Made by a program: the position numbers and the translations under genes. This document shows positions 3,265 to 34,249 of a stretch of 64,000 nt of DNA, piece after piece. The notes below the pieces were generated by a model. It was not told the origin of the DNA. It was given only the letters and a program-made list of their open reading frames with translations, and made no database searches. Positions within the stretch are counted from its first letter, which is position 1, and the number at the start of each line of letters is the position of its first letter. Source of the DNA: Thiovibrio frasassiensis (GTDB taxonomy: Bacteria; Desulfobacterota; Desulfobulbia; Desulfobulbales; Desulfurivibrionaceae); assembly GCF_029607905.1 (NCBI RefSeq), contig NZ_JAPHEH010000001.1, forward strand, positions 2,137,530 to 2,201,529, in the 5' to 3' direction.

Positions 3265-4002
3265 TTAGGGGAGCTGGCGCAGGAGGCTGAGTTGGCCAAG
3301 CAGGGCCGGAACCGCGGTATCGACCCGGAGGATGCGGGCGCCGAGGCTGAAGGGGATAAAGCCTTGCTTCTTGAGGTGTTCTACTTCAAAATCAACCCAG
3401 CCCCCTTCGGGGCCGATGGCAAGGAGTGCCCGTTGCTCCCGCAGACCTCCTGCCGCCTGGGCAAGGGTGCGGTCGCCATCCGGATGGGCGAGAAGCCGGG
3501 TCAGACAATCGCTGAGCTGTTCGGGCAGGAAGTCTTCCACAAAGGGCCGGAATCTGGGATGGACGGAGATCTCCGGCATCCTGGTGTCCATGGCCTGCTC
3601 AAGCCCGAGGCAGAGCGGTTCCCTGAAATCGTTGTTTTGGATGAGGGTGGAGCTGAAAAAACTTTTCTCCACCCGGTTGGCGTTGATGAGAAATATCCGG
3701 GTTACCCCCATGGAGACCGCCTGGGCGAGGACCCGTTTTAGCATGATGGGGCGGGGTACGGCCAGAATCAGGTCGGTGGGCGGGCAGGGCGGCGGTTCGC
3801 TGGTGAGGTGCACCGCGAGGACAACGTTCTTGCCGGTCATCTCCCGGATGCAGCCGGTGCCGAGCAGGCCGCCCAGCACTCCGACCCGGAGGGTGTCCCC
3901 GACAGAGGCGCGGAGAATTTTGCGGATGTGTTCGGCACGGCGATCGCTCAGGGTGACATGGTGATCGGTCAGTTCCTTCGGATCGAGTAGGATCAGGTTC
4001 AT
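3265..4002 (-). CDS. rsmE: 16S rRNA (uracil1498-N3)-methyltransferase RsmE
   Basis: SPOUT-family enzyme that methylates U1498 of 16S rRNA using S-adenosylmethionine. The 245-aa length fits. Visible blocks are an N-terminal PUA-like part (HVTLSDRRAEHIRKILRASVGD), the central AVPRPIMLKRVLAQAVSMGV segment, and the C-terminal SAM-binding knot (LLAIGPEGGWVDFEVEHLKK, then FSLGARILRVDTAVPALLGQ). The start codon is one base away from the start codon of the divergent waaA, so its translation signals must lie within waaA coding DNA; no clear Shine-Dalgarno is visible. Function is secure; the exact start is less so. Confidence 0.95.
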   Translation of the reverse strand: MNLILLDPKELTDHHVTLSDRRAEHIRKILRASVGDTLRVGVLGGLLGTGCIREMTGKNVVLAVHLTSEPPPCPPTDLILAVPRPIMLKRVLAQAVSMGVTRIFLINANRVEKSFFSSTLIQNNDFREPLCLGLEQAMDTRMPEISVHPRFRPFVEDFLPEQLSDCLTRLLAHPDGDRTLAQAAGGLREQRALLAIGPEGGWVDFEVEHLKKQGFIPFSLGARILRVDTAVPALLGQLSLLRQLP

Positions 4003-4003
4003 A

Positions 4004-5308
4004 ATGGATATGGTATCGGCTTTTTTTTATAATCTGTTCATGACAATGGCGGTGATTGTATTCGCTCCGCTTCTTTTCGTCAAAGTTATACTGACCCCCA
4101 AGTACCGAAGCCGTACCGGCAAGCGGCTGGGCTTCGGCCTCGGGGCACAACCCGGTGGTGCGGCCCGTCACCCCCGCATCTGGGTGCATGCCCTGTCCGT
4201 CGGCGAGGTGGCTTCCGCCCGCAATCTCGTGCAGGAGCTGCGGCGCAGCTATCCCCAGGGGATCATTCTTTTCTCCGCCTCCACCCGGGCCGGGGAGACT
4301 TTTGCCAGGAGCATCCTCACGGAGGAGGTCGATTGGTTCGTCCCCTTTCCCTTTGATCTGCTCATCAGCGTAAAGCGGTTGGTTTCCTGGGCAAAGCCCG
4401 ATCTCTTTATCTTGGTCGAGACGGATTTTTGGCCGAATTTCCTGAGGGAGCTCAAGCGGCGGAAGATCCCCGCGCTTCTGGTCAATGGCCGGGTCTCGGA
4501 GAGTTCCCTGGCCGGATACCGCAATCTGCGCTGGCTCTTCAGGCCGCTTTTTAATGGTTTCCAGAGCCTGGCCATGCAAACCGAGCAGGATGCTGCCAGC
4601 CTGCGACGGATGGGGGTTGATCCTGCGCGCCTGGTTGTTCTGGGCAACCTGAAATACGATGCGGCCCTTCCCGGAGGCGATACCAAGCCAGGGCTTGACC
4701 GGGAGGCGCTGCAGATCCCGGAAGACGCCGTGGTCTGGGTGGCGGGCAGCACCCATCGGGGAGAGGAGGCGATTATTTTTAATACCTTTCAACGGGCGGC
4801 CCGCTCCTTCTCTAATCTCTTTCTCGTCGTGGCGCCGCGCAATGTGGAGCGGGGCGGTGAGCTTGCCGCCATGGCCAGCGCGCGCGGCCTTTCGGCCTCC
4901 CGCCGAGCGCTGGGCGGGGCAGGGGGAGGGGGGGTGCTGATCCTCGACACCCTCGGGGAATTGTCTTCGGTATACGGAGTGTGCGATCTGGCCTTTGTCG
5001 GCGGCAGTCTGGTTCCCCAGCGGGGTCACAACCCATTGGAGCCGGCGGTTCATGGCAAGGTGGTTATGTTTGGGCCGTTTATGGAGGATTTTGCCGAAAT
5101 CAGTCGCGATCTCCTTGCGGTGGGCGGGGCCAGAGAGGTGCACGATGAGGAGGAGCTCTTCTCCGCGCTTTCTTTTTTCTTGAGTGATCCGGCGGAGCGG
5201 GCGCGGGCAGGGCACCGGGCCCAGGGGCTGATCGCCTCCCGGCGCGGGGTCACCGAAGCGTATATCGCCTTAATCCGCAGGTTGTTGCCCCGGGAGGGAA
5301 AAGGATGA
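4004..5308 (+). CDS. waaA: 3-deoxy-D-manno-octulosonic acid (Kdo) transferase
   Basis: Transfers Kdo from CMP-Kdo to the lipid A precursor at the cytoplasmic face of the inner membrane. The 434-aa protein has an N-terminal membrane anchor (about residues 5-28), then the acceptor-domain motif HALSVGEVASA, whose Glu is the family's catalytic base. The C-terminal donor-domain signature is FVGGSLVPQRGHNPLEPA. The last four bases overlap the lpxK start (ATGA), so waaA and lpxK are translationally coupled in a lipid A operon. The 5' end abuts rsmE head to head; ATG 4010 is an alternative start. Whether one or two Kdo units are added cannot be told. Confidence 0.94.
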   Translation: MDMVSAFFYNLFMTMAVIVFAPLLFVKVILTPKYRSRTGKRLGFGLGAQPGGAARHPRIWVHALSVGEVASARNLVQELRRSYPQGIILFSASTRAGETFARSILTEEVDWFVPFPFDLLISVKRLVSWAKPDLFILVETDFWPNFLRELKRRKIPALLVNGRVSESSLAGYRNLRWLFRPLFNGFQSLAMQTEQDAASLRRMGVDPARLVVLGNLKYDAALPGGDTKPGLDREALQIPEDAVVWVAGSTHRGEEAIIFNTFQRAARSFSNLFLVVAPRNVERGGELAAMASARGLSASRRALGGAGGGGVLILDTLGELSSVYGVCDLAFVGGSLVPQRGHNPLEPAVHGKVVMFGPFMEDFAEISRDLLAVGGAREVHDEEELFSALSFFLSDPAERARAGHRAQGLIASRRGVTEAYIALIRRLLPREGKG

Positions 5309-6366
5309 AACCGCTGCTTAGCGTACTTTTTCTGGTCGGGCGGATTTTTTCGCCACCATACAGCCTGGTCATGCTGCTGCGCTCCTTTTTGTACCGAAAC
5401 AATATCTTTTTAAAATCCCAGCAGCTGCAGCGGCCGGTTATCAGCGTAGGCAACCTCACCCTGGGAGGCACCGGGAAAACGCCCATGGTGCGCTATGTCG
5501 CCCGCCTGCTCTTGGACAGGGGGGTGCGACCGGCCATTGTCAGCCGCGGCTATGGCGGAAAGGCCGGAGGTAAGGTGAATATCGTTGCCGATGGCGGCAA
5601 GATCCTGCTTGCGCCGGAGATGGCCGGGGATGAACCGTTCATGCTTGCCGAGGCGCTGCCCGGGGTCCCGGTCCTCACCGGTTCGGAAAGAGCGCGGGTG
5701 GCAAGACAGGCCATCGATGTGTTCGGGGTGCATATCATCGTCATGGACGATGGTTTTCAGCATCTTGCTGTCCGGCGTGATCTTGACCTGGTCCTCTTCA
5801 GTGCCGGAACGCTCCTCGGCAATGGCCAGGTTTTTCCCGGCGGGGAATTGCGGGAGCCGCTCTCGGCCCTGGGCAGGGCCCATGCTTTTGTCGTGACCGG
5901 GGTTGACCGGAGCAACCGTTCCGGGGTGGATAATTTTCAACGTTGGCTGCAGGGAAAATTTCCGCAGACGCCCGTGTTTTTGGGGGAATACCTTCCCGCC
6001 GGAATCTGGCACAGCGGCCAGGGTCAAGTCTGTACCCTGGCCGAGGCCCGGAACATGCAACTTTTTGCCTTTGCCGGCATCGCCAACCCTGACTCCTTCC
6101 GGCAGACCTTGCGGCAGGAGGAATTTTCGCTTACCGGCTTTAAGGAGTATCGGGATCATCATGGCTATACCGCGCAGGATGTCGCGGATCTCGTGGCTGC
6201 CGCCCGGGCCAGCGGTGCTCAAGCGCTGATCGCCACGGAAAAGGATTTTGTCAAGCTCCGCCCCTATTTCGGGGAATTTCCTATTCTGGCCCTGACCATC
6301 GAGCTTCGCATGGATCTAAATTTTGATCGTTTCATGGCGGAGCAGCTCTCCGGTTTTTCGCTGTAG
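5305..6366 (+). CDS. lpxK: Tetraacyldisaccharide 4'-kinase
   Basis: Phosphorylates the 4' position of the lipid A disaccharide at the inner membrane. The 353-aa length is normal. Features seen are an N-terminal amphipathic/membrane stretch (about 15-30), the Walker A loop GGTGKTP (54-60), the SRGYGGK motif (80-86) and the catalytic DDGFQH motif (148-153), all diagnostic. It follows waaA with a 4-base overlap, and lpxC comes next after a 235-base spacer, so three lipid A genes cluster here. Confidence 0.96.
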   Translation: MKPLLSVLFLVGRIFSPPYSLVMLLRSFLYRNNIFLKSQQLQRPVISVGNLTLGGTGKTPMVRYVARLLLDRGVRPAIVSRGYGGKAGGKVNIVADGGKILLAPEMAGDEPFMLAEALPGVPVLTGSERARVARQAIDVFGVHIIVMDDGFQHLAVRRDLDLVLFSAGTLLGNGQVFPGGELREPLSALGRAHAFVVTGVDRSNRSGVDNFQRWLQGKFPQTPVFLGEYLPAGIWHSGQGQVCTLAEARNMQLFAFAGIANPDSFRQTLRQEEFSLTGFKEYRDHHGYTAQDVADLVAAARASGAQALIATEKDFVKLRPYFGEFPILALTIELRMDLNFDRFMAEQLSGFSL

Positions 6367-6403
6367 CAGCAAAAAAACTTTTCCTAGCATGGCAGGGGGT
6401 TGC

Positions 6404-6427
6404 GGGTGTGTCTTTTTTGCCACACCC
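6404..6427 (+). other. Stem-loop in the lpxK-lpxC spacer
   Basis: GGGTGTG and CACACCC can form a 7-bp stem around a T-rich 10-base loop. It has no following T-run, so it is not a clear terminator. A second inverted pair (CATGTT...AACATG) lies shortly downstream. The spacer is otherwise AT-rich and probably carries the lpxC promoter or leader; no confident promoter could be picked. Confidence 0.4.
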
Positions 6428-6601
6428 AGGGAGCCCCTTGCGCAAAGCATGTTCCGGTTTGTTTGTGTAACATGCTGTAATTGTAATATTTTTTTGTTTG
6501 TTGTCTTGTGCGGCTCGCGGTGGTCTGTTTTTTGCATTACTAGTATTTGGTTTCAATGAGCGTTGCAAAATACACACAGACCACTCAAGAGTGTTGAACA
6601 T

Positions 6602-7585
6602 ATGGATTCATTACAGCACACCATCAAACGTCCGGTAAGCTTCGCGGGCATCGGCCTGCATTCCGGCAAGGTTGCCACCCTCTCCATTCTCCCCGGCGAG
6701 AAGAACAGCGGGATCCGCTTTGTCCGCAGTGATTTGCCGCAGGCCGCCCCGACACCCGCCTTTATGGATCGGATCATCGACACCCGCCTTGCCACCACCA
6801 TCGCCACCGAGGATGAGGCTTTGATCTCCACCACCGAGCATCTGCTCGCCGCCCTGTTTGGCATGGGCATCGACAATGCGGTGGTCGAGTTGGATGGTCC
6901 CGAGGTGCCCATCATGGATGGCAGCGCCGGTCCCTTTGTGCATGTGCTTAAAAGGGTGGGGCGCCGTCGGCAGAACGCCTGCAAATGGATGCTCAAGGTG
7001 AACCAGGAAATCTCCTTTGTCGAGGGCGATTCCTATGTGAAGATCCTGCCCTATGACGGCTTCAAGGTCACCTGCGAGATTGAGTTCAATCACCACCTGA
7101 TCAGAAAGCAGACCTTCTCCAGTGATCTCAACCCCCAGAAATTTGCCAAGGAGATCGCCGGCGCCAGAACCTTCGGCTTTCTCGATCAGGTTGAGAAGCT
7201 GAGGCAGAGCGGTCTCGCCCTGGGCGGCTCCCTGGAAAACGCCGTGGTTATCGATGATGATGGCATCGTCAATGTCGAAGGGCTCCGTTTCGCCGATGAG
7301 TTCGCCCGGCACAAGACCCTGGACGTGATCGGCGATCTTGCCTTGTTGGGCTTCCCCCTGCTTGGTCATGTCGTGACCCGCAAATCCGGACATGGCCACC
7401 ATTTTTCCCTGATGAAGCAGCTTGCTGCCCAGCCCGAGCGTTGGGACCTGATTGCCTATAAGGGAGAAGGGGAGAGCCGGGTCCTTGAAAAGGTGGTCGT
7501 GAGCACCAAGGAGGCTGGCGACAAATTGCTCTCCTATCTCTTGCCGCCCAGTCTCGCTCTTGTCGGGCAACCCTGCTTTGCTTAA
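6602..7585 (+). CDS. lpxC: UDP-3-O-acyl-N-acetylglucosamine deacetylase
   Basis: Zinc amidase catalysing the committed step of lipid A synthesis. With the ATG at 6602 (MDSLQHTIKRPVSF) the product is 327 aa. The zinc ligands are visible: His80 in TTEHLLAAL, and His237 and Asp241 in HKTLDVIGD. The catalytic His lies in GHGHHF (263-268). A TTG further upstream at 6563 would add 13 unrelated residues, so it was not used. A good terminator follows 28 bases after the stop, so lpxC ends its transcript. Confidence 0.97.
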   Translation: MDSLQHTIKRPVSFAGIGLHSGKVATLSILPGEKNSGIRFVRSDLPQAAPTPAFMDRIIDTRLATTIATEDEALISTTEHLLAALFGMGIDNAVVELDGPEVPIMDGSAGPFVHVLKRVGRRRQNACKWMLKVNQEISFVEGDSYVKILPYDGFKVTCEIEFNHHLIRKQTFSSDLNPQKFAKEIAGARTFGFLDQVEKLRQSGLALGGSLENAVVIDDDGIVNVEGLRFADEFARHKTLDVIGDLALLGFPLLGHVVTRKSGHGHHFSLMKQLAAQPERWDLIAYKGEGESRVLEKVVVSTKEAGDKLLSYLLPPSLALVGQPCFA

Positions 7586-7612
7586 ACGAGCAAGCCTCGC
7601 TTAAGAGGAACG

Positions 7613-7647
7613 ACCCGCGGATGTTGCAAAACTCTGCGGGTTTTTTT
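7613..7647 (+). terminator. Intrinsic terminator after lpxC
   Basis: ACCCGCGGA (7613-7621) pairs with TCTGCGGGT (7633-7641), including one G-U pair, followed by a run of seven T. It separates lpxC from proC. Confidence 0.8.
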
Positions 7648-7812
7648 ACGCCCACCGTTTGGCCCTGTTCGAATTGCTCTTATTCTGGCTGATGATGCGG
7701 CCGCGAATCCTCCTTGCAATGGTGGGGGAAATTGGTACCATGCACCAGGATTATTATTGATTCACTATGGCCGTTTTTTCTGTCCGGCCTGATTAACCAA
7801 GAGGAGCAGGCT

Positions 7813-8658
7813 ATGGGGTTTTCCGGGAAACTAGGCTTTGTCGGCGGGGGTTTGATGGCCGAAGCCCTGATCAAGGGCATTACAGGGGCCGGGCTGGTCA
7901 AGGGTGAAGAGATTCTGGTCGCAGATCCCAGCAGTGCCCGACGGGCTTTGTTGGAGAAGGATTATAATGTAACCGCGGTTTCAGAGGCCACTGCGGTCTG
8001 GGCGGAGTGCAAGGTGGTTGTTCTTGCCGTTAAACCGCAGGTGCTCACCGCTGTCCTCAGCGATGCCCGGGAACAAATAAACGCCGGCCATCTGCTTATC
8101 TCCATTGCCGCAGGAATCCCGCTCGCCGTGCTGGAAGGTGCGGTTGCCGGGCGCGGTTGCCGGGTTATCCGGGTGATGCCCAATACCCCGGCCATCGTGC
8201 TTAAGGGCGCCTCCGCCCTCAGCCCCGGCCAGGGTGTAACCCCCGAGGATCTGGCCGTTGCCACCAGCATCTTCGATGCGGTGGGGGTAAGCTTTGTCTT
8301 GGAGGAGTCCTATCTCGATGCGGTTACCGGCTTGAGCGGCAGCGGTCCGGCCTATGTCTTCACCTTTATCGAATCCCTGATCGATGCCGGGGTCAAGGTG
8401 GGTCTGGCCCGTCCCGTGGCCCAGACCCTTGCCCTGCAGACCGTACTTGGCTCTGTGCTGCTGGCCTTGGATGGCACCAAGCACCCCGCAGAGTTGCGGG
8501 CCATGGTGACCTCTCCCGGCGGCACCACCATTGCCGGATTGCATGAGCTTGAAAAGGGCGCCTTTCGAGCGTTGGTCACCAACGCGGTGGAGGCGGCGAC
8601 CAACCGTTCCAGTGAACTGGGCCGACAGGTGGTTGCCGGGGCCGGTAAAAAATCGTAA
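7813..8658 (+). CDS. proC: Pyrroline-5-carboxylate reductase
   Basis: Last step of proline synthesis: NAD(P)H reduction of pyrroline-5-carboxylate. The 281-aa protein starts with the Rossmann segment LGFVGGGLMAEAL. The C-terminal family signature is VTSPGGTTIAGLHELEKGAF, and the conserved SGPAYVF lies before it. The ATG at 7813 has a GAGGAG ribosome site 8 bases upstream (7801-7806); the frame is open further up but without family similarity. nadK follows 56 bases downstream on the same strand. Confidence 0.96.
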   Translation: MGFSGKLGFVGGGLMAEALIKGITGAGLVKGEEILVADPSSARRALLEKDYNVTAVSEATAVWAECKVVVLAVKPQVLTAVLSDAREQINAGHLLISIAAGIPLAVLEGAVAGRGCRVIRVMPNTPAIVLKGASALSPGQGVTPEDLAVATSIFDAVGVSFVLEESYLDAVTGLSGSGPAYVFTFIESLIDAGVKVGLARPVAQTLALQTVLGSVLLALDGTKHPAELRAMVTSPGGTTIAGLHELEKGAFRALVTNAVEAATNRSSELGRQVVAGAGKKS

Positions 8659-8714
8659 GAGAAGACCCGTGCGTTAGCTTGTAAAGAACAGCGCCTCAAT
8701 AAATTGGGAGTGTA

Positions 8715-9554
8715 ATGAACATCCGTAAGGTTGGGATCATCTGTCGAAAAGATTCGCCTGCCGCCCTGGCGATGAGCAGGGAACTGCTTTCCTGGCTTGG
8801 CGAGCGCTCCATCGCTGCCGAGGTGGATACCATTGTTGACGGGATGGACCTGTTGATTATCCTCGGCGGAGACGGGACCCTGCTCCATGTCGCCGAGCAG
8901 GCAAGCCGACTCGAGGTGCCGGTGGTGGGGGTCAATCTCGGCGATCTCGGCTTCCTGACCGAAGTGGCGGTCAGCGAACGGTATGAGGTGCTGGAAGGGA
9001 TTCTGGCCGGGGAGATGGTTATTGAGGAACGGTTGATGCTCAAGGCCCGAATCCGCCGTGCCAATGAGACCTCCGGCTGGCGCCATGCCCTCAACGACGT
9101 GGTGGTGAGCAAGGGCAGCGCGGACCAGTTGGTGCAGTTGAGCACCTGGGCCGACCAGAAATACATCACCACCTACCGGGCGGATGGCTTGATCTTTTCC
9201 ACTCCCACCGGCTCAACGGCCTACAACCTCTCCGCCGGAGGGCCCATCGTCAACCCGGCCCTGCAGTCCATCCTGGTGACGCCGATCTGTCCCTTCATGC
9301 TGGAAAGCCGCCCGGTGCTGCTCCCGGCCGCGGTTTGTCTCACCACCAGACTTGCCGAGCAGGGTAACGAGGTGAAGGTCATTGTCGATGGCCAGCCCGC
9401 CTGGGAGATGTCCCCCGGCGAGACCCTGGAGGTGGTGGCTTCGGAAAGGCCCCTGCGGCTCATCTGCTCTCCGCAAAAGGATTATTTTGAAATCCTGCGC
9501 AACAAGCTGAACTGGGGCGGAAGAGCAGGCGAAGCTCGGAAACATCCGCTCTAG
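8715..9554 (+). CDS. nadK: NAD kinase
   Basis: ATP- or polyphosphate-dependent phosphorylation of NAD to NADP in the cytosol. The 279-aa protein carries the GGDGT motif at residues 51-55, LGDLGFLTEV after it, the ALNDVVVSKG block, and the glycine-rich DGLIFSTPTGSTAYNLSAGG segment typical of PpnK. In the ALNDVVV block Asp replaces the more common Glu (ALNEVVI), a conservative change. It lies downstream of proC and ends at a strong bidirectional hairpin. Confidence 0.96.
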   Translation: MNIRKVGIICRKDSPAALAMSRELLSWLGERSIAAEVDTIVDGMDLLIILGGDGTLLHVAEQASRLEVPVVGVNLGDLGFLTEVAVSERYEVLEGILAGEMVIEERLMLKARIRRANETSGWRHALNDVVVSKGSADQLVQLSTWADQKYITTYRADGLIFSTPTGSTAYNLSAGGPIVNPALQSILVTPICPFMLESRPVLLPAAVCLTTRLAEQGNEVKVIVDGQPAWEMSPGETLEVVASERPLRLICSPQKDYFEILRNKLNWGGRAGEARKHPL

Positions 9555-9581
9555 CAGTAGGTGGGTTGCGAAACAAATAAA

Positions 9582-9617
9582 AAAGCGGCGGCCTCATCAC
9601 AATGAGACCGCCGCTTT
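9582..9617. terminator. Bidirectional terminator between nadK and the YtxH gene
   Basis: AAAGCGGCGG (9582-9591) pairs with CCGCCGCTTT (9608-9617), the stem continuing after one mismatch as CTCAT/ATGAG around a CACA loop. Flanking A and T tracts suit termination in both directions, as expected between two convergent genes. Confidence 0.85.
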
Positions 9618-9641
9618 GCTTTGACTGAATTTCGCTTGGAG

Positions 9642-10031
9642 CTAATCGTTTTCTTCCAGCTTGTGGGACAGGGCTTCCCGCTCTTCCTGCATGGCCACTT
9701 TCCCGGCCTCGATGGCATCGCTCAGGGTTCTTTTCTTCTCGTCGAGAAAATCCTTGCCCTGGGCGGCCAGATCCGTGCCGCGGCTGATGAGTTCCTTGCC
9801 TTTGGCGATCATCTCCTTGCTCCGCTCTAAGGCGGTCTCCTTGTACTCCTCGAAATCATCGGGCAGGGTCTTGGCCCGCTCCTTCAATTCGGCCCCGTAG
9901 TCGGCCAGCATTTCTCTGGTTTCCTGGCCGGTCTTCGGGGTGGTCAGCAGGGCAATGGCCGCGCCGACAACGGTGCCTGCCAGGAAGGCCAATACTGCGG
10001 TGCTGGAATTGTCGCAATTGTCTCTGCTCAT
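9642..10031 (-). CDS. YtxH-domain membrane-anchored protein
   Basis: A 129-aa protein with one N-terminal glycine/alanine-rich membrane segment (AVLAFLAGTVVGAAIALLTTPKTG, about 13-36) followed by a long charged, coiled-coil-like tail rich in Glu, Lys and Ala. This is the YtxH/general-stress family layout; the molecular function is unknown. ATG 10031 has an AGGAG ribosome site in the preceding bases. It is adjacent, 1 base away, to the DUF948-like gene upstream, and the two are commonly found together, so they likely act in one envelope-associated process. Confidence 0.75.
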   Translation of the reverse strand: MSRDNCDNSSTAVLAFLAGTVVGAAIALLTTPKTGQETREMLADYGAELKERAKTLPDDFEEYKETALERSKEMIAKGKELISRGTDLAAQGKDFLDEKKRTLSDAIEAGKVAMQEEREALSHKLEEND

Positions 10032-10032
10032 A

Positions 10033-10437
10033 TCATTCTCCTTGTTTGTGTTTTTTCCAAGATCGGTTGAGGAAATGCGAGAAGGCCAAGACCCCGGCGC
10101 TGAACCCGCCAAGATGAGTGATGAAGGGGCTTGCCGTGTCCTTGAGCATGGTGGCGGTGGTAAGCAGGGTTTCCGCCGATTTCTGGGCGGTGTAGATGAC
10201 CCTGTCCGTCTTTTCGATCTTGTCGCTTAAAGAAATGGAGAGGATCTGGATCTCGTTGGCCGCCTCGGTCAGGGAGAGGCAGAGCGGGTCGATATGCCTG
10301 TTGAGGTTGTCGATGCAGATCTCCAACTTCTGCAAGGTGCGGCGAAACTGGAGGAAGGTCGGCACCAGGGCGATGGCAATGGCAAAAAGGCTTACGGCAC
10401 TCAGTAGGGTGAAAAATTCTGAAGAGGTCACTTCCAT
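10033..10437 (-). CDS. DUF948-like membrane protein
   Basis: A 134-aa protein with an N-terminal transmembrane helix (about 9-28, FFTLLSAVSLFAIAIALVP), then a helical region with heptad-like hydrophobics, and a C-terminal glycine-containing hydrophobic patch (GGFSAGVLAFSHFL) before a basic tail. This matches the DUF948/YtxG type that accompanies YtxH proteins. The ATG at 10437 is chosen because AGGAGT precedes it; a TTG at 10455 is a weaker alternative. Function unknown. Confidence 0.68.
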   Translation of the reverse strand: MEVTSSEFFTLLSAVSLFAIAIALVPTFLQFRRTLQKLEICIDNLNRHIDPLCLSLTEAANEIQILSISLSDKIEKTDRVIYTAQKSAETLLTTATMLKDTASPFITHLGGFSAGVLAFSHFLNRSWKKHKQGE

Positions 10438-10556
10438 TACTCCTGTGTGGGCCAAGGATAAAGGTGAAATAGTCTGTTCTTATAATAGAGAGGTTTCCTC
10501 CGCCCTGCAAGGGGAAAAGCCAAGGGGCGGTCAGGGCCGCGCTGGCACTCTCCTGG

Positions 10557-11105
10557 TTACAGCGGCAGATCGAAGATTGCCTGGAGTTTGCCGTTATGCA
10601 CCCGCACTTCCCGCAGGGTATAGGCGGCGGTGATTTCCTTGAGGTTTCTCCCCTTGAGCTCGTAGATCGGTCGTTTTGCGAGTTCTTGGCGGGCGAGGTT
10701 TTCGATGGCCTCTCGGGCCTTGTCCTGCAGCTCGGGCATGAGCCCAGGCAGCTCCAGCCGTTCCACCGTGGCCTGCTCAAGATAGAGCGACTTCGATGCC
10801 GCATCGTAACGCGGGACCGCCGACACTCCCAGATGGCCGGAGATTGGCTTCATAAAAGGGATGTTCAGCTCGACCAGCGTATTGATCCCGATCTGATTGG
10901 CGCCCTCGGAGAGGAAAATTTCCGGCTCACTCAGGGCGACCTTGAGGATCAGCCAGTTCTTGGTGAGGGGGAACAGGGGCGCCACGCGGGCCTGGATCTC
11001 ATCGCGGCTCAGGCTCACCACCACTTCGCGCGCATTGCAGGCAACCATGGTGGCAAGAAGGGCAAGGGCCAGGAGCAAGCAAAGTTTTGAGCGCTGTCTG
11101 TTCAC
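10557..11105 (-). CDS. DUF1439 (YceB-like) lipoprotein
   Basis: A 182-aa predicted lipoprotein. A GTG start at 11105 preceded by AAGGA gives VNRQRSKL, then a hydrophobic signal and a lipobox ending MVAC at about residue 24. The mature part (LSRDEIQARVAPLFPLTKNW, and the Leu-rich beta-strand pattern with conserved YDAASKSLYL) resembles DUF1439/YceB, a lipid-binding-like fold of unknown role anchored to a membrane. The open frame runs further upstream to 11282, overlapping the flavin reductase gene, but those residues contain no signal and are unlikely to be translated. Confidence 0.72.
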   Translation of the reverse strand: MNRQRSKLCLLLALALLATMVACNAREVVVSLSRDEIQARVAPLFPLTKNWLILKVALSEPEIFLSEGANQIGINTLVELNIPFMKPISGHLGVSAVPRYDAASKSLYLEQATVERLELPGLMPELQDKAREAIENLARQELAKRPIYELKGRNLKEITAAYTLREVRVHNGKLQAIFDLPL

Positions 11106-11176
11106 GGGATGGTCCTTGTTCTTGGCAAGCCCCGGCAGCTCGGCCCGGGCGGGTTTGATACGGGAGCTGTCCGCTG

Positions 11177-11713
11177 CTACTGCATCTTTGACTTCAGTCT
11201 GATTGTTTCCCCGGCCACCATGAAACTGCCGCAGCCCCGGTGGTGGATGGTGCGCGGCTCCTGCACGGCCGGGTCGATCCAACCTTTAAGCACCTCAAGG
11301 ACAAAAAATCCGTACCGGGCAACCATCTCGGTGTCTACTACCCTGCATTCGAGATTGGCATAGCATTCCGCGATGAGCGGCGCGCCCACTTTCTTTGCCG
11401 GTTTGGGGGTGAGGCCAAAGGCGGTGAACTTGTCGATCTTTGCCCCCGAGGTATTCCCGCACCCCACCACCTTTTCGGCGATTTCCACGGTGGGTATGTT
11501 TATGACGCATTCGTTGCTTGCCGTCAACAAGCGAAAGGAAAGGCTGCGATCGCCGATCACGCACCCCACCAGGGGCGGCGTAAATTCGAGCATGGTGTGC
11601 CAGGACATGGCCATGATGTTGGGGTGCTGGTCGCCAGCGGTGGTGAGCAGCACCACCGGCCCCGGTTCCAGCAAGGTGTACACCTTGGAGAGCGGAAAGG
11701 ATTTTTTGGCCAT
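11177..11713 (-). CDS. Flavin reductase-like FMN-binding domain protein
   Basis: A 178-aa flavoprotein of the flavin-reductase-like (DIM6/NTAB, split-barrel) family. Recognisable segments are PGPVVLLTTAGDQHPNIMAMSW (FMN-binding strand), the LVGCVIGDRSLSFRLL block and the ECVINIPTVEIAEKVVGCG segment before the GAKIDKF motif. In sulfate reducers such proteins are often small FMN electron carriers; the partner is unknown. ATG 11713 follows GGGGGAT; an in-frame ATG 24 bases upstream would add PPKGDTT. It lies downstream of the dehydrogenase at 11786 and may share its transcript. Confidence 0.85.
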   Translation of the reverse strand: MAKKSFPLSKVYTLLEPGPVVLLTTAGDQHPNIMAMSWHTMLEFTPPLVGCVIGDRSLSFRLLTASNECVINIPTVEIAEKVVGCGNTSGAKIDKFTAFGLTPKPAKKVGAPLIAECYANLECRVVDTEMVARYGFFVLEVLKGWIDPAVQEPRTIHHRGCGSFMVAGETIRLKSKMQ

Positions 11714-33016: not shown

Positions 33017-34003
33017 TTACCCGGTTCCAGGCTGGTTGAGCTTGTGCTCGAGATAGGTGGAAAGTTGAGGAAAACTGCAGCCATAGGCCTCAACCTCCTC
33101 CTGCTTTCCCTTCACCCGGAAGGAGTATTTCTTGAAAAATGTTTCAGGTGCAAGAAGGTGCATGGCAGCATCGCAGCCCATCACGATATCCAGGTCCTCT
33201 TGCCTGTTGGTCAAGCTTTCCAGGCGAAACGCCACATTCACCACATCTCCCACCACGGTGTAACTGCCGTTCTGGGTAAGGTTCCCCATCATCGCCTCTC
33301 CGGTATTGAGGGCTGCCCCGATCTGTAAAGCCCAGGGAAGGTCTGGAATCTTCTTGCCGAGATTGCTGGTGAAGGTGTTGATGGCAATGGCTGTTTTCAG
33401 GGCCTGGTGAATGTTGTCCTGGAGATTTGCTCCGGACCACAGGGCCATGACCGCGTCCCCGATGAATTTATCGACCGTCCCGTTATGTTTGTTGACCAGC
33501 TTGGTGACTCGCCCGGTCCAATGCTGGAGGAGTTGGGAAACCCACTGGTCGCCCATGGTTTCGGAGAGCTTGGTGTAGTCATGGATGTCGCAGATCAGGA
33601 TGGTGATGATCTGTTTCTGGACAAAGGCCACGGTCATTTCGTCGAGATCCGGACCGTTTGTCGCCGCTGCTCTGTTTGGGCTCGTATCCTGATGGAAGAG
33701 GAGGCGGGTGCTGCCGATGCCGATGCAGTCGCCGTCTTGCAGAGATACCGGGGTGTGGATCTTCCTGCCGTTGATAAAGGTGCCGTTGGAGCTTCCCAGG
33801 TCAATGAGATTGAAACGGCCATTTTCCTCTTTCTGGATCATGGCGTGCTTCCGGGAGACCCATGAATAGGGAAGGGTGATATCGGTGTTGGCTACCCGGC
33901 CCAAGGTGTAGGTGGTGTCTGTACCGAGCAGCCAGCGCGGGGCATTGTCTTCCTGGGCATCAAGAAGAGTGAGGGTGGCAGATATTTCCGGTGACGCGGT
34001 CAT
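33017..34003 (-). CDS. FHA domain-class III adenylate cyclase fusion
   Basis: A 328-aa soluble protein joining a phosphothreonine-binding FHA domain (about 30-105; Gly35-Arg36, Ser50-x-x-His53, SSNGT 71-75) to a class III cyclase domain (about 130-310). Catalytic residues are in place: metal Asp139 (ICDIHDYTKL) and Asp183 (GDAVMALW), purine-selecting Lys179 and Asp253, and transition-state Asn256 and Arg260 (GDVVNVAFRLE). Lys with Asp favours ATP, hence cAMP. FHA control implies input from a Ser/Thr kinase, which is not in the window. Its start lies 21 bases after the selenoprotein stop, so the two may be cotranscribed. Confidence 0.92.
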   Translation of the reverse strand: MTASPEISATLTLLDAQEDNAPRWLLGTDTTYTLGRVANTDITLPYSWVSRKHAMIQKEENGRFNLIDLGSSNGTFINGRKIHTPVSLQDGDCIGIGSTRLLFHQDTSPNRAAATNGPDLDEMTVAFVQKQIITILICDIHDYTKLSETMGDQWVSQLLQHWTGRVTKLVNKHNGTVDKFIGDAVMALWSGANLQDNIHQALKTAIAINTFTSNLGKKIPDLPWALQIGAALNTGEAMMGNLTQNGSYTVVGDVVNVAFRLESLTNRQEDLDIVMGCDAAMHLLAPETFFKKYSFRVKGKQEEVEAYGCSFPQLSTYLEHKLNQPGTG

Positions 34004-34024
34004 GGTTGTCAGAGCGCCTTCCTG

Positions 34025-34249
34025 TTACCCGTGACTCTGGATGAGGCTGATGATTTCCTCGGGTTCGGCAAAACGACCGGATGCGTGTTTTGAAAAGACC
34101 AGACACCCATCGGCCATGATCTCGTAGATGCCACCGGAACTGGGGATAAGCTCAACTTCGGCAGCGAATTGTTTCTTGAGTTCGGCTTCCAGCCTGGAAG
34201 CACGCGGCAGATAGTTTCATTGGGAGCAGTAGGTGATGGTGATCTTCAT
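34025..34249 (-). CDS. SelW/Rdx-family selenoprotein (in-frame UGA)
   Basis: A 74-codon gene that is continuous only if the UGA at codon 11 (34217-34219) is read as selenocysteine. It starts MKITITYCSQ, then Sec, then NYLPRASRLEAEL, giving a CxxU redox motif in the thioredoxin-like Rdx fold. Downstream blocks fit the SelT/SelW/SelH domain: SSGGIYEIMADGCLVFSK followed by GRFAEPEEIISLI. Frame, length and motif position all match the family, and a SECIS-type hairpin lies right after the UGA. Treated as an ordinary stop, the gene is invisible. The role is probably thiol redox, as for the family. selA/B/C/D are not in the window. Confidence 0.9.
34185..34219 (-). promoter_or_regulatory. Bacterial SECIS element after the UGA codon
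   Basis: The UGA (34219-34217) is followed on the minus strand by a perfect 7-bp hairpin: GCTTCCA (34201-34195), loop GGC, TGGAAGC (34191-34185). The loop starts 22 bases after the UGA and begins with G, as known bacterial SECIS hairpins (short apical loop with a guanosine in the first two positions, about 16-37 bases after UGA). Confidence 0.8.

Follow-up and report, generated by a model that had tools for sequence, protein, structure and literature searches.

A SelW-like selenoprotein gene with a predicted selenocysteine UGA codon in a Desulfobulbales-type bacterium

Bacterial members of the SelW-type family have been known since the early 2000s. SelW-like proteins with a CxxU motif and a bSECIS element constitute the most abundant selenoprotein family in Sargasso Sea data (PMC1088965), and the deltaproteobacterial lineages Desulfotalea and Geobacter are listed among those with SelW-like selenoproteins (PMC1794560). 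In Epsilonproteobacteria, SelW genes have been reported to be wholly missed by annotation (PMC4607533). The gene described here lies in a stretch of 64,000 nucleotides (the window) and shows no substantial difference from the published bacterial proteins, being a further case in another genome; it likewise combines a CxxU motif, a small Rdx domain, a bSECIS element right after the UGA and a Sec-decoding host (PMC1088965; PMC1794560). It is an ordinary member of this long-published SelW-like family, its biology is as expected, and the curated NCBI model NF041051 (SelTWH_Campy; SelT/SelW/SelH family (seleno)protein) already covers its '(seleno)protein' subfamily. This model is matched over its full length, although it is named after Campylobacter and the host groups with Desulfobulbales-type bacteria. 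More distant relatives include the Cys-form Rdx protein Atu0228 (PDB 2fa8), which shares the domain (E 3.8e-13) with its CxxC aligned to CxxU; this and other Cys-form Rdx proteins differ in carrying Cys in place of Sec and in having some 30 additional residues. Mammalian selenoprotein W (PDB 2npb) shares the superfamily and the CxxU motif, but is distant in sequence (E 0.029), and the eukaryotic SECIS is located in the 3' UTR.

The region 34025-34249 almost certainly encodes a selenoprotein of the SelW-like (SelT/SelW/SelH, Rdx) kind in a Desulfobulbales-type bacterium, with an in-frame UGA predicted to be read as Sec. The features that define it are as follows:

34025..34249, minus strand: Rdx-family, selW-like selenoprotein gene of 74 codons plus TAA, with UGA as the predicted Sec codon 11
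34217..34219, minus strand: in-frame UGA, the predicted Sec11 of the CxxU motif C8-S-Q-U11; TGA in 40/40 true relatives and Cys in solved-structure homologues
34185..34201, minus strand: bSECIS hairpin GCUUCCA-GGC-UGGAAGC, 7 bp with loop GGC, fitting the constraints of PMC13188914 and with compensatory changes

The frame runs from an ATG at 34249 to a TAA at 34027-34025. The N-terminal part of the read-through protein is MKITITYCSQ-U-NYLPRASRLEAEL..., and the full translation of 34249-34025 is MKITITYCSQ-U-NYLPRASRLEAELKKQFAAEVELIPSSGGIYEIMADGCLVFSKHASGRFAEPEEIISLIQSHG, followed by the TAA. As the initial annotation had anticipated for standard gene calling, this frame is absent from the table-11 ORF list, in which the sole entry at the locus is a wrong-frame ORF of 64 aa (34009-34203). 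A scan of the uncovered parts of the window for other UGA read-through frames yielded four, none resembling a known selenoprotein by eye. The gene had no match among plasmids, and no sigma-70-like promoter was found in the gap upstream of it.

Searches against protein models used the read-through sequence with Cys substituted for Sec. Nearly full-length matches were obtained to Pfam Rdx (PF10262; 76.1 bits against a curated cut-off of 22.6), TIGR02174 CXXU_selWTH (60 bits against 34.2) and the NCBI equivalog NF041051 (97.1 bits against 88). Because all three scores exceed their cut-offs, the frame is not a product of chance. The earlier proposal of a 74-codon SelW/Rdx-type selenoprotein hidden by an in-frame UGA is upheld, every check that it put forward having given the expected result. 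The N-terminal CxxU/CxxC motif of the SelT/SelW/SelH (Rdx) family, which follows the first strand, is present as C8-S-Q-U11, with CTQC in homologues. Alignments with structurally solved homologues, among them Atu0228 (2fa8), cover nearly all of the read-through protein and place Cys opposite the UGA, where the initial annotation had expected it. By analogy with these homologues the protein would adopt a thioredoxin-like fold, and its family membership suggests a redox role.

Conservation of the UGA was assessed by a scan of genome contigs. Among the 44 loci recovered, 40 belong to true relatives, with identities of 43-91%. The other four (L041-L044) were left out, being false hits with local or partial matches to an unrelated long protein. 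In all 40 true relatives codon 11 is TGA, a Cys lies three residues ahead of it and the frame stays intact past it, and none has the unrelated residue or real stop that would have spoken against the proposal. Their records are deltaproteobacterial, planctomycete, acidobacterial, myxococcal, betaproteobacterial and from Sulfurovum. Within the window's order an Rdx gene is common (199/257 genomes), and among the matches listed every such gene contains exactly one in-frame TGA and is always in the Sec form. When the window is compared with nine relatives, few codons before the UGA differ at all; after it, synonymous differences prevail in most comparisons (among 63 codons, for instance 17:5, 14:6 and 13:7), which together with the model scores bears out the earlier claim that little room is left for chance. 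Conservation of an in-frame UGA among orthologues, with Cys in other homologues, is the pattern characteristic of selenoproteins. A known family interrupted by a single UGA could also represent an Rdx gene in decay, whose codon 11 is a true stop arising through pseudogenization or sequencing error. Such decay is at odds with the identical UGA in all the relatives across several phyla, as well as in the order's matches among those listed, with a post-UGA frame that changes mainly via synonymous codons, and with a host genome that decodes Sec; because the UGA is conserved together with an intact downstream frame, this explanation is effectively excluded and is accorded only a minimal probability.

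Several irregularities of distribution were seen in the same survey. Most genomes of genus g21 (G034-G056) have SelA, and no Rdx/SelW gene was seen in this genus, while neither SelA nor Rdx/SelW was seen in genus g26 (G071-G075); in both, N stretches could mimic absence. The two genera look like cases of lineage-specific SelW loss, perhaps accompanied in g26 by loss of Sec decoding. Two metagenome-assembled genomes from Lac Pavin encode an identical selW protein (L009 and L010), and one of them also has a different copy (L005), a pattern that is probably due to cross-binning.

The perfect 7-bp hairpin with a GGC loop, noticed in the initial annotation at 22 bases after the UGA, was located at that position; its stem begins 15 nt downstream of the UGA, and its loop 22 nt downstream. 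The published bSECIS model specifies a loop of 3-9 nt, a stem of 4-16 bp, a G within the first two loop positions, a distance of 16-37 nt from the UGA and a minimum free energy of at most -7.5 kcal/mol (PMC13188914). The window's hairpin has a GGC loop with G first, 7 bp, a distance of 22 nt and an energy of -12.4 kcal/mol (52-nt stretch). Taken by itself, the hairpin region has an unremarkable, non-significant fold energy (z -1.3); covariation was used instead. In a set of 23 diverse relatives, pairing is kept in 91.9% of pair cells, and 15 cells are changed on both sides of the stem; shuffles gave 4.9 +/- 2.2 such cells and slid controls 0-5. The first loop position is G in 41/41 sequences, and two of the seven pairs are invariant; since the hairpin lies within coding sequence, protein constraint explains part of its conservation. 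Rfam searches of the window and the locus returned no SECIS family at threshold, a result that neither supports nor contradicts the assignment.

The 2.84-Mb host genome, in 3 contigs and 95% complete, contains all four of the genes sought by the initial annotation, as expected for a bacterium with selenoproteins: selA (SelA, 616 bits), selB (SelB, 375 bits), selC (tRNA-Sec, 72.5 bits, anticodon TCA) and selD (SelD, 378 bits). The host SelD (L063; G000:C1:1039542-1040465) itself has an in-frame TGA near its N terminus (...KAAG-U-AAK...), which brings the selenoproteins encoded in this genome to two or more. It is conceivable that the UGA is read otherwise, through near-cognate suppression or a reassigned code, to give Trp or Cys. 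Against this stand the presence of tRNA-Sec with anticodon UCA alongside SelA, SelB and SelD, the fit of the hairpin to the bSECIS model, and the occurrence in homologues of Cys, the residue replaced by Sec; such a reading is highly improbable, if slightly less so than gene decay. Sec insertion at codon 11 is instead predicted by analogy with the family. SelB with Sec-tRNA(UCA) would bind the hairpin immediately 3' of the UGA, and the ribosome would place selenocysteine at codon 11. The product would be a 74-aa thioredoxin-like redox protein, in which the Cys8/Sec11 (CxxU) pair may cycle between a selenenyl-sulfide and a reduced form.

Within the order, 28 genomes that carry SelW gave no SelA match. 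Six of these were checked; neither SelA (PF03841) nor SepSecS (PF05889) was found in them, and tRNA-Sec and SelB are present in all six. The neighbours of selA in G129 were traced into G127, G128 and G118, where the stretch next to these neighbours, the expected place of selA, reads N for 5,000-7,500 bases:

L086 (G127), 4002-11501: N stretch at the expected selA site
L087 (G128), 4002-11501: N stretch at the expected selA site
L088 (G118), 4002-9001: N stretch at the expected selA site

Because the selA site itself reads N, masking most likely accounts for the apparent absence in these three genomes, and probably in the others as well.

The surroundings of the gene were also compared. Upstream lies an HI0933-type flavoprotein gene, and downstream the following:

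33017..34003, minus strand: gene for a protein that combines an FHA domain with an adenylate/guanylate cyclase domain, 21 nt downstream of the selW stop; probable operon partner

This gene order is kept in 17 of the 40 related loci (L001-L012, L015, L017-L019 and L030), with the FHA/cyclase gene still adjoining selW at 40-64% cyclase identity, and other genes lie beside selW in the remaining relatives. This suggests co-transcription of selW and the FHA/cyclase gene in this lineage rather than a general functional requirement. The pair persists in these loci even as cyclase identity falls to 40%. SelW and the FHA nucleotide cyclase might work together as a functional pair, with the redox state of SelW coupled to cyclic-nucleotide signalling, though such coupling is considered unlikely. 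The conserved pairing is an only mildly fresh observation.

Overall, this selW-like gene matters little beyond annotation, for which it provides a clean example of a selenoprotein lost by plain ORF calling. Its conserved FHA/cyclase neighbour may offer a weak hint of what bacterial SelW does physiologically.
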